From Methanobacteriota archaeon (lineage in GTDB: Archaea > Thermoplasmatota > Thermoplasmata > Thermoplasmatales > Aciduliprofundaceae), in assembly GCA_013154005.1 (NCBI GenBank), contig JAADDK010000134.1:1-33247 (forward strand): a stretch of 33,247 nt of DNA, written 5' to 3'. The number at the start of each line of letters is the position of its first letter. Position 1 is the first letter of the stretch. The translations under genes and the position numbers were made by a program. Shown piece after piece: positions 5,990 through 8,410 of this stretch. The notes beneath the pieces were generated by a model that had not been told where the DNA came from, did not search any database, and saw only the letters and a program-made list of their open reading frames with translations.

Positions 5990-7408
5990 TCACCTCCTCA
6001 GCGTGATGTCTCTGAGTCGTGCATATGCACCGCCCATCCACACCGGTACACCCTGCATCGGCTCACCTTTTCCGCACGTGCCGGGATAGAATTCCACTTC
6101 TCGAGACACAGCGTCCACACTGCTCCACAGTGCGCGGGTTGTGATTTCGATTATGGGCTTGACGACGGGGTGCTTAATCTCGCCGTTCTCAATGAGATAC
6201 GCTTCTCTGCCCACGTATCTCTGCTGGTATCTGCGGTCATCTATATTCCATTCGTTGAAACTTTTTATGAATACGCCCCTTTTCACGTCTTCGATGAGCT
6301 CTTCAAAGCTGTGCTCTCCCGGAGCAAGATATGTGTTTGCCATTCTCACTATGGGCTCTCTGTCGTAGTTGAATGCACGGGCGGCGGCGTTGGAGTGCGT
6401 GCCGAGAATATATGCGTACTCTCGGTTTGTCAGAAACTCGTTGATTATGCCGTCCTTGATGAGATATCGGGGCCTGGCTTTCACGCCCTCATCATCATAA
6501 AGATAAAATCCGTAGCTTCCCGGTATGGTGGGGTCTTCCACCACGTTTACCACATCGCTGCCAATTCTCTCACCGAGCATGTCGGGGGTTACGAAGCTCT
6601 CACCCGCCTGCGCGGCTTCACGGCCGAATATGCGGTCCGACTCATATGGATGTCCAACACTTTCGTGAACTGCGATTCCCGAGACCTCGGGGGCGATTAC
6701 AATGTCCAGTTTTCCCTCCGGCGAGGGTTTGCCTTCCCTGAGCATTTTTTGAAGGATACGCACGTCCGCCTCTGCGCGGGCCCATGGCTCATCTGCCTCT
6801 ATGTATTCCAGCCCGCCGGTAAACGCGCTTTCCACAAACGGTGCCTGTGCAGTTTTTCCGTCTTCCAGCACAACCAGATTGTACATTATTACCACTCTGG
6901 GAATCGTGCTATCTATCCATGCGCCTTCGGTGTTGGCAAAGATGCGATGTTCCAGCAGTTCGTTATAAATGAGGTATCGCATAGGAACGTTTATTCCTGT
7001 GTCCTTAACTCTATCTTCTATGAGCTTGAGATACTCGGTTTTTTCCTCGATGCTCATATCCAAAAAGCTTTTTTTCATTATAACCTCGTATCTGGCCCTC
7101 TGAAACCGTTCTTCGCTGAACCGTATTTTATTTTTTCGCACTTTTGCGGACATTTTTGCCAGCTTGAGTGCCTCGGTAAGCGCGTTCGTTATCGACTCTT
7201 TAGTGAGTGTGTTTGTGGAAGCAAAACCCATTGCGCCGTCCACCAGCACCCTTATTCCCATACCTTCATCATTGGCAATCTGCACACCTTCCGTCATTCC
7301 GTTTTTGAAAGGTATGCCGGTGCCCGTGGTCTTCTGGTACCGTGCTTCGCAGTGCTCTGCACCTGCTTCAAGCGCTTTATCCATGACAAGTTCTATAAGC
7401 TCTTCCAT
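5990..7408 (-). CDS. tldD: TldD family metalloprotease
   Basis: VIAPEVSGIAVHESVGHPYESDRIFGREAAQAGESF contains the HExxxH TldD metal motif; paired with PmbA. Confidence 0.93.
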   Translation of the reverse strand: MEELIELVMDKALEAGAEHCEARYQKTTGTGIPFKNGMTEGVQIANDEGMGIRVLVDGAMGFASTNTLTKESITNALTEALKLAKMSAKVRKNKIRFSEERFQRARYEVIMKKSFLDMSIEEKTEYLKLIEDRVKDTGINVPMRYLIYNELLEHRIFANTEGAWIDSTIPRVVIMYNLVVLEDGKTAQAPFVESAFTGGLEYIEADEPWARAEADVRILQKMLREGKPSPEGKLDIVIAPEVSGIAVHESVGHPYESDRIFGREAAQAGESFVTPDMLGERIGSDVVNVVEDPTIPGSYGFYLYDDEGVKARPRYLIKDGIINEFLTNREYAYILGTHSNAAARAFNYDREPIVRMANTYLAPGEHSFEELIEDVKRGVFIKSFNEWNIDDRRYQQRYVGREAYLIENGEIKHPVVKPIIEITTRALWSSVDAVSREVEFYPGTCGKGEPMQGVPVWMGGAYARLRDITLRR

Positions 7409-7664
7409 ACTGTCACCTCTTTTGCATCAATATGCATATATCTTATTTAACGCTTTCTTAATTAATATATAATTTATAAAATTTTTCTTTCAGAAGGGTA
7501 TTTTTGAGAGGGTCATTGGTTGGCCACCTGTGTGTAAATGGCTAGCAATAAATTGAGGTTTCGGGTTGAAAGCGTATGATGAATTTGAAAGCATATTCCG
7601 AAAAATAAACGTTTTGAAGGAGGTAATAAGATGAGGGAAATGACGAACCCCGAACATGAATTAG

Positions 7665-7737
7665 CAGCCCCGGGGAGATTCGAACTCCCGTCGCGGGATC
7701 CAAAGTCCCACATGCTTGACCGCTACACCACGGGGCT
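7665..7737 (-). tRNA. tRNA-Gln (anticodon UUG)
   Basis: Reverse complement AGCCCCG-TG-GTGT-AGCGGTCAA-GCAT-G-TGGGA-CTTTGGA-TCCCG-CGAC-GGGAG-TTCGAAT-CTCCC-CGGGGCT-G folds as a complete 73-nt cloverleaf; loop CTTTGGA gives anticodon TTG; CCA not encoded. Confidence 0.96.
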
Positions 7738-7851
7738 TCGTTTCACTTCGCCCGGGGTGAGTTCGCACAGAAGAGCTCACTACACCACGGGGCTTCGTTT
7801 TCCTTCGGCCGGGGTGAGCTCACACCTGCGTGTTCGCTACACCACGGGGCT
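7738..7851 (-). repeat. Two tandem 57-nt units, each carrying the first 15 nt of tRNA-Gln (AGCCCCGTGGTGTAG), immediately 5' of the tRNA
   Basis: ctacaccacggggct occurs at 7723-7737 (tRNA), 7780-7794 and 7837-7851, exactly 57 nt apart. Intervening segments are alignable without gaps (tcgtttcacttcgcccggggtgag... / tcgttttccttcggccggggtgag...). Confidence 0.9.
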
Positions 7852-7972
7852 ATGGAAGGTGATGGGATTGAACCCAGTATTTGCCTCTATGACGGCAGGC
7901 ATGGAAATGAATGAATTGATATATAATTCTTTCACAGCCAAGTTTTTATGGCATCAGTGCTTTTCGCCACGC

Positions 7973-8410
7973 ATGAACGTTCCGGCCGTGGTGCAGATTA
8001 CGCTGGCTCCGTTGCTCTTGGTATCTTCAACCGGACTGCTCATTTTAGGGCTGGGAAACAGAATGGGCAGGGTCATTGACCGGCTCCGTGAATTTTCCAG
8101 AGAGATAAGAAGCGGAGGCATCGATGAAGAGCGTAGAAAGGTGATAATGTGCCAGAAAGGAGTGCTTCTACGGCGTGCCCGACTATGCAGAAATGCAATG
8201 CTGCATTTTCATCTGACTATATTATTTGCGGCGCTTTCCTCTATATTCATGTTTTTCTCATCTTTGCACAGCGTGTTCGATTATCTCGTGCTTGGCACTT
8301 TCGTGGTATCACTTATGACTCTGCTTATAGGTGCGATATTCGCCGCGCTGGAAATCTCGCTCTCGTATTCTGCGATTCTGCGCGAAGCGAAGGTGTACCT
8401 TAGAGAATGA
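7973..8410 (+). CDS. DUF2721 family membrane protein
   Basis: MNVPAVVQITLAPLLLVSSTGLLILGLGNRMGRVIDRLREF... with C-terminal TM helices. Conserved part begins about 7973; the ORF remains open upstream to 7631 across the antisense tRNA. Confidence 0.8.
   Translation: MNVPAVVQITLAPLLLVSSTGLLILGLGNRMGRVIDRLREFSREIRSGGIDEERRKVIMCQKGVLLRRARLCRNAMLHFHLTILFAALSSIFMFFSSLHSVFDYLVLGTFVVSLMTLLIGAIFAALEISLSYSAILREAKVYLRE

Follow-up and report, generated by a model that had tools for sequence, protein, structure and literature searches.

What are the two short tandem units that stand directly upstream of a tRNA-Gln gene in this DNA, each opening with the beginning of that tRNA, and how might they have come to be there? 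The window, that is, the whole 33,247-nt stretch analyzed, comes from a DHVE2/Aciduliprofundum-type archaeon and carries on its minus strand an intact tRNA-Gln with anticodon TTG (7664/5-7737; ARAGORN; Rfam RF00005, 59 bits). Read directly from the sequence, the order on that strand is AAATAC (7882-7877), unit 2 (7795-7851), unit 1 (7738-7794) and the tRNA. Each 57-nt unit opens with an exact copy of the first 15 nt of the tRNA, AGCCCCGTGGTGTAG, which is the sole 15-mer present three times in the window; in this respect the original prediction of two tandem units was right to the base. It was also correct that the units align without gaps beyond the 15-mer while having diverged: 30 of these 42 positions are identical (45/57 over the full unit), and the similarity between the units was reached by none of 100,000 random shuffles. 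In unit 2 the copy is followed by a hairpin set between two GA steps (the GA-hairpin; core at 7820-7835, minus strand, GA-ACAC-GCAG-GTGT-GA), an arm complementary to the copy, and the tail GAAGGAAAACGA. Unit 1 has the same layout, with its core at 7763-7778 (minus strand, GA-GCTC-TTCT-GTGC-GA), the tail GAAGTGAAACGA, and an inner stem that has partly decayed and contains one U-U mismatch. Since the units are flanked by a TldD/PmbA gene on the left (5990-7408, minus strand) and a DUF2721 gene on the right (from about 7973, plus strand), both lie in non-coding DNA. An open frame on the plus strand (7631-8410) crosses the tRNA and both units in antisense, each 57-nt unit counting 19 codons, and continues into DUF2721; given this frame, an annotation pipeline could wrongly stretch DUF2721 over the tRNA and the units. 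Between AAATAC and unit 2, just 5′ of the latter, lies a palindrome that resembles a T-arm in its sequence, GGGTTCAATCCC (7875-7864, minus strand), possibly a further tRNA remnant.

Folded singly, six units adopt one common rod, with z-scores of -2.9 to -5.1 in five of them and -1.9 in unit 2. The supported fold, CCCG-T-GGTG-T-AGY-GA-stem-loop-stem-GA-RCT-CACC-C-CGGG, consists of a stem formed by the tRNA end (CCCG and GGTG facing CACC and CGGG, with a mismatch between them), a one-base bulge (T), three pairs (AGY with RCT), an invariant tandem G-A/G-A, and a capped stem of 4-5 bp. Across nine Gln units, 93% of the cells are paired and three pairs have changed on both sides (1/500 shuffles). 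Across 19 cores from all contexts, 93% are paired, 7 of the 12 pairs have changed on both sides, and the score is reached by 0 of 500 shuffles. Both sets of shuffles treat the sequences as unrelated, and the core alignment pools contexts presumed to be homologous. Neither GA step varies in any of these cores. In one relative (G010) the unit has drifted away from the tRNA and its arms are still complementary, so it seems to be the fold itself, and not identity with the tRNA, that is preserved. Such preserved structure suggests selection on something. Rfam searches returned no match except tRNA, which eliminates known RNA families, and a kink-turn or a box C/D or H/ACA RNA is excluded by the one-base bulge three pairs from the tandem GA, where no 3-nt bulge is found. 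A similar tandem-GA helix in 23S rRNA was removed by hand from the copies. The hairpin GTGAG...CTCAC, which had been singled out in unit 1, is an alternative helix that did not hold up as a conserved fold, since it shows no compensatory change. Bulge-helix-bulge-like pairing likewise lacks covariation, and we consider it extremely unlikely that the units form a bulge-helix-bulge processing site or an intron-like precursor, making this a disrupted or permuted tRNA. Several relatives do have introns in tRNA-Gln, and in some units one can draw a TGAGC/GCTCA helix flanked by bulges, but this helix is without compensatory change and broken in several units, and the downstream tRNA is complete without splicing.

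Looking for the unit in this genome and in relatives, as the original prediction had advised, brought further copies to light. The second tRNA-Gln of the same genome (G000; anticodon CTG, contig C74) is preceded by one unit, and four relatives carry units at tRNA-Gln: G003 and G013 at both genes, G004 at TTG only, and G010 in a diverged form with compensated arms. In three species both tRNA-Gln genes bear units. Among some 28 other tRNAs inspected in this genome, none has an upstream copy of its own 5′ end, so that a general tRNA feature is ruled out, and most other family members have no units at tRNA-Gln. A tree of ribosomal proteins places G003 and G004, both same-genus relatives, as sisters; it joins G000 to G002 and G007 (support 81/90) and G013 to three unit-less species; since the carriers are thus scattered, presence is patchy. 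At the CTG gene, which has a conserved promoter (CTCATATACC..TTTATTT), the space from promoter to tRNA at orthologous sites is exactly filled by a unit in G000 and G003 and empty in G002, G004 and G007, and in G003 the direct repeat ATAGCCCCGTGGTGTAGTG flanks the unit. Across relatives, the TTG gene shows the same layout with respect to its TATA-like box. Alignment with their TTAAATAC favors AAATAC, which precedes unit 2 by about 31 nt, as the candidate TATA box over the AT-rich stretch at 7918-7928 proposed earlier. Because a unit begins at the point that is the tRNA start in relatives without units, the Gln units are, judging from sequence, probably transcribed as a 5′ leader of the tRNA, and the earlier idea of transcription through the units is therefore plausible. 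At three loci in unit-less relatives (L033, L040, L045), stretches of about 15-26 nt that start with GGCCCCG lie just 5′ of tRNA-Gln and are perhaps unit remnants. The tRNA-Gln introns of several relatives (L037, L038, L039, L050, L054) measure about 48-53 nt and are of two unrelated types, GGAACC.. and GAAGCCCC..; unlike these genes, the window’s own tRNA-Gln is intron-free.

These comparisons bear on the possibility that the units are a functional leader RNA, co-transcribed with tRNA-Gln, whose GA-hairpin serves as a binding site for a protein or RNase P and sets the supply of tRNA-Gln (and tRNA-Gly). The coincidence of the unit start with the inferred transcription start in several relatives would fit such a role, as would the occupation of both tRNA-Gln genes in three species and the compensatory changes that keep the fold even in the G010 unit, which no longer matches its tRNA exactly. 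However, units are missing at one or both genes in close relatives. This absence had been named in advance as counting against the earlier interpretation, and to that extent it was found.

The distribution of the hairpin beyond tRNA-Gln weighs further on this question. A covariance model (R1) trained on the nine Gln units alone gave 68.2 bits for unit 2 and 69.8 bits for unit 1, both of which are in its training set. Within the order, its matches beyond tRNA-Gln were confined to the family, and the 99 remaining genomes gave none. Units lie upstream of tRNA-Gly(GCC) in G003, G004, G010 and G014, and each begins with that tRNA’s own 5′ end. In the genome of the window, tRNA-Ser(TGA) and tRNA-Ser(CGA) have units past their 3′ ends, on the opposite strand, which start with the reversed tRNA 3′ end, and G003 and G005 have additional tRNA-Ser 3′ ends whose T-loop contains the GA-hairpin. 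At six loci (L169, L173, L180, L186, L187, L199), an orphan tRNA-Ser 3′ end has a double hairpin in its T-loop; such copies are repeated both in single genomes and from one genome to another, and they lie 30 to 1400 nt downstream from tRNA-Ser(GGA). In G016, a GA-hairpin lies 35 nt inside the end of an element that we take, from its layout, to be IS481-like. This decayed element (L133, G016:C196, 1155-1860) has the ends TGTGGAGTACGGAAATTATT and CCGTACTCTACA and a 15-bp target duplication, CCAGTCTAAATACTG; its left end carries the GA-hairpin together with a GCCCTC..GAGGGC hairpin at 35 nt, and a related end occurs in G142 (L248).

A pattern search blind to tRNA genes revealed many hairpins of the form GAGCATC-loop-GATGCGAG, which in several genomes clearly outnumbered the reversed-pattern control, for instance 15 against 0 in G009 and 11 against 1 in G012; dispersed copies fitting the strict pattern were absent from G000 and G013, both of which have Gln units. 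A second hairpin, GCCC..GGGC, frequently comes after the GA-hairpin. Among 56 distinct copies, 32 are at most 300 nt from a tRNA gene, as against about 2% expected, although the copies are not independent and the tail probability serves only as an indication. Around tRNA genes at L214-L225 (G009) and L163-L191, the intergenic DNA forms long mosaics of short structured modules; the modules include GA-hairpins, GCCC..GGGC hairpins, TTCTTTGGGGTAAAC and GGGAACCCGCTGGTGGTTCCC, and some resemble the tRNA-Gln introns of relatives. Outside the family, five genomes of the same class matched. Among these cases are a tRNA-Ser 3′ unit in G119, a GA-hairpin at an IS481-like end in G142 (where a related frame matches transposase-type helix-turn-helix families only), a double hairpin with no tRNA nearby in G176, and, in G158 (L249, C58, about 1490-1600), two hairpins in the D-arm of a partial tRNA-Ala(TGC) copy, comprising its 5′ 38 nt, upstream of an intact tRNA-Ala. 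The R1 match in G120 was false, being tRNA-Gln itself. The pattern CCCGTGGTGTAGYGA..GARCT, sought in named genomes, occurred in two DHVE2 records and in 12 bacterial matches, the latter taken as chance. The element is thus spread through the Aciduliprofundum/DHVE2 family and, more thinly, through other families of the class.

Copies near tRNA genes are mostly downstream: 27 of the 32 dispersed copies lie on the tRNA 3′ side, 13 in the same orientation as the tRNA and 14 in the opposite one. As for the earlier idea that the units might compete for RNase P, the opposite-strand placement at tRNA-Ser speaks against a pre-tRNA role that all copies would share as RNA, and more broadly the independence of orientation from tRNA transcription, there and in the dispersed copies, argues for a repeat at the DNA level and not for a shared role in tRNA processing. 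In light of this, we regard the functional leader RNA as rather unlikely.

The same distribution bears on a simpler account, in which tRNA-Gln was duplicated in tandem and the copies degenerated, losing the middle part of the tRNA, without the action of any mobile element. The exact 5′ 15 nt agree with it, and unit 1 can be aligned in its 3′ part to the T-arm and acceptor end of the tRNA (P 0.006). In a test of similarity beyond the 15-mer, though, this was the only significant result, the other five of the six units failing to align significantly, and the hairpin core does not derive from the tRNA and appears again at IS481-like ends and elsewhere without such a tRNA. Duplication as the whole explanation is therefore insufficient and, in our view, unlikely. 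The original description of shortened tRNA-like modules without an anticodon arm captures the shape fairly, and the suggestion of relics of repeated recombination or integration at the tRNA end comes close to the picture that the relatives present. It had also been held that a match to an unrelated dispersed repeat would tell against that reading; the hairpin does belong to a dispersed repeat, one that is itself tRNA-associated.

The explanation we favor, with a probability of roughly 60%, is that the units are copies of a non-coding, structured mobile hairpin repeat inserted in partial duplicates of tRNA ends, the tRNA itself staying intact. We count sequence, fold, covariation, dispersal, tRNA association and the filled and empty sites as the observations behind it. 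The core of the element is Y-GA-stem-loop-stem-GA-R with the invariant tandem G-A/G-A. In its tRNA-gene copies the element lies within a partial duplicate of the 5′ end (tRNA-Gln, -Gly, -Ala) or of the reversed 3′ end (tRNA-Ser), the neighboring tRNA is whole, and the copied end forms the outer stem of the fold. Insertion may have taken place in the D-arm or T-arm region of a tRNA, duplicating an end of 14-19 bp, as the direct repeat at the G003 site would suggest. Later tandem copying, which could have produced the two units at the window’s tRNA-Gln, or loss might then have proceeded via the direct repeats, and the Gln units would be transcribed as a 5′ leader and cut off by RNase P. The element is probably selfish or neutral. 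A counterpoint is that the arm opposite the tRNA copy changes from tRNA to tRNA, matching each; complementarity to whichever end is copied is unexpected for a fixed mobile sequence. The matching arm may stem from copying of a whole tRNA, from template switching or from later selection.

What might move such a hairpin repeat? No reverse transcriptase was found in 18 genomes, and a Y1 transposase was found in two of the 18, neither with Gln units, so that both are dismissed as the mover, as is a REP element mobilized by a RAYT. A MITE of the IS481-like element is also excluded, since by inspection the terminal inverted repeat of the G016 element is absent from the tRNA units and only the sub-terminal hairpin is common. 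The ends of tRNA genes are classic integration sites, and the units could be scars of site-specific integration, by a tyrosine integrase or a casposase, that duplicated the tRNA end. Direct repeats of similar length fit this account, and the casposon of A. boonei resides at a tRNA-Pro 3′ end, the site preferred by its casposase (PMC6614799). Yet the inserts are structured and only 35-44 nt long, and the tRNA-Gln 5′ end lacks the geometry of the casposase target, in which TCAAATC precedes the duplicated segment by 8 bp. Cas1 was not found in the unit-bearing genomes G000, G004 and G010, which are incomplete. With neither Cas1 in these incomplete genomes nor the target motif at the site, a casposon product finds no support, and integration scars as a class appear very unlikely.

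A more far-reaching version of the mobile-repeat explanation, which we offer tentatively and regard as rather unlikely, holds that hairpins mobile at the level of RNA or single-stranded DNA occur class-wide, are recognized by their tandem G-A and enter tRNA D- or T-loops, duplicating the tRNA end. This would be an undescribed route of transposition, one that gives rise to archaeal tRNA genes that are split, contain introns or carry leaders. In the literature covered, in which subscription papers were mostly not included, we found no earlier description of the GA-hairpin element in archaea, and it seems to represent a so far undescribed family of archaeal hairpin repeats attached to tRNA genes across families of one class. 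It could provide a concrete route by which archaeal tRNA genes gain fragments, leaders and perhaps interruptions, and a culturable host (Aciduliprofundum), together with exactly filled and empty tRNA sites, would make the mechanism testable.

Hairpin repeats of this kind are best known from mitochondria, where their way of moving is an open question. The GA-hairpin shares with double-hairpin and palindromic repeats its occurrence as one or two adjacent hairpins, its dispersed copies (G009, G012) and its exactly filled and empty orthologous sites; the likeness is one of behavior. Double-hairpin or repetitive hairpin-forming elements occur in fungal, algal and sponge mitochondria, often beside tRNA genes, and they too are short, single or double, dispersed, non-coding and patchy between relatives (PMC2800124). 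Unlike them, the GA-hairpin is archaeal, has an invariant tandem G-A in its stem, and builds its outer stem from a copy of a tRNA end, which differs according to the tRNA. Yeast mitochondrial palindromic GC clusters, of about 42 nt, similarly show a putative target duplication, proliferation, merging and shuffling, but their target duplication is 2 nt (AG), whereas the GA-hairpin is accompanied by a 14-19 nt copy of the tRNA end (PMC4478555). Prokaryotic REP elements and MITEs are likewise short non-coding hairpin repeats in intergenic DNA; the GA-hairpin differs in its strong tRNA association, in the lack of a Y1 (RAYT-type) transposase in most genomes, and in that no terminal inverted repeats were found. 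The A. boonei casposon comes from the same archaeal family, targets a tRNA end and duplicates a target segment, but it is large, encodes Cas1, and uses the tRNA-Pro 3′ end with the TCAAATC motif (PMC6614799). Finally, a mobile element has been proposed to scatter tRNA fragments in Caldiarchaeum, leaving a tRNA 5′ fragment beside or away from the intact tRNA (PMC3293823). That element is 1.8 kb long and carries a recombinase, whereas the GA-hairpin measures a few dozen nucleotides; the proposal nevertheless provides a precedent for the tRNA-fragment side of the units described here.
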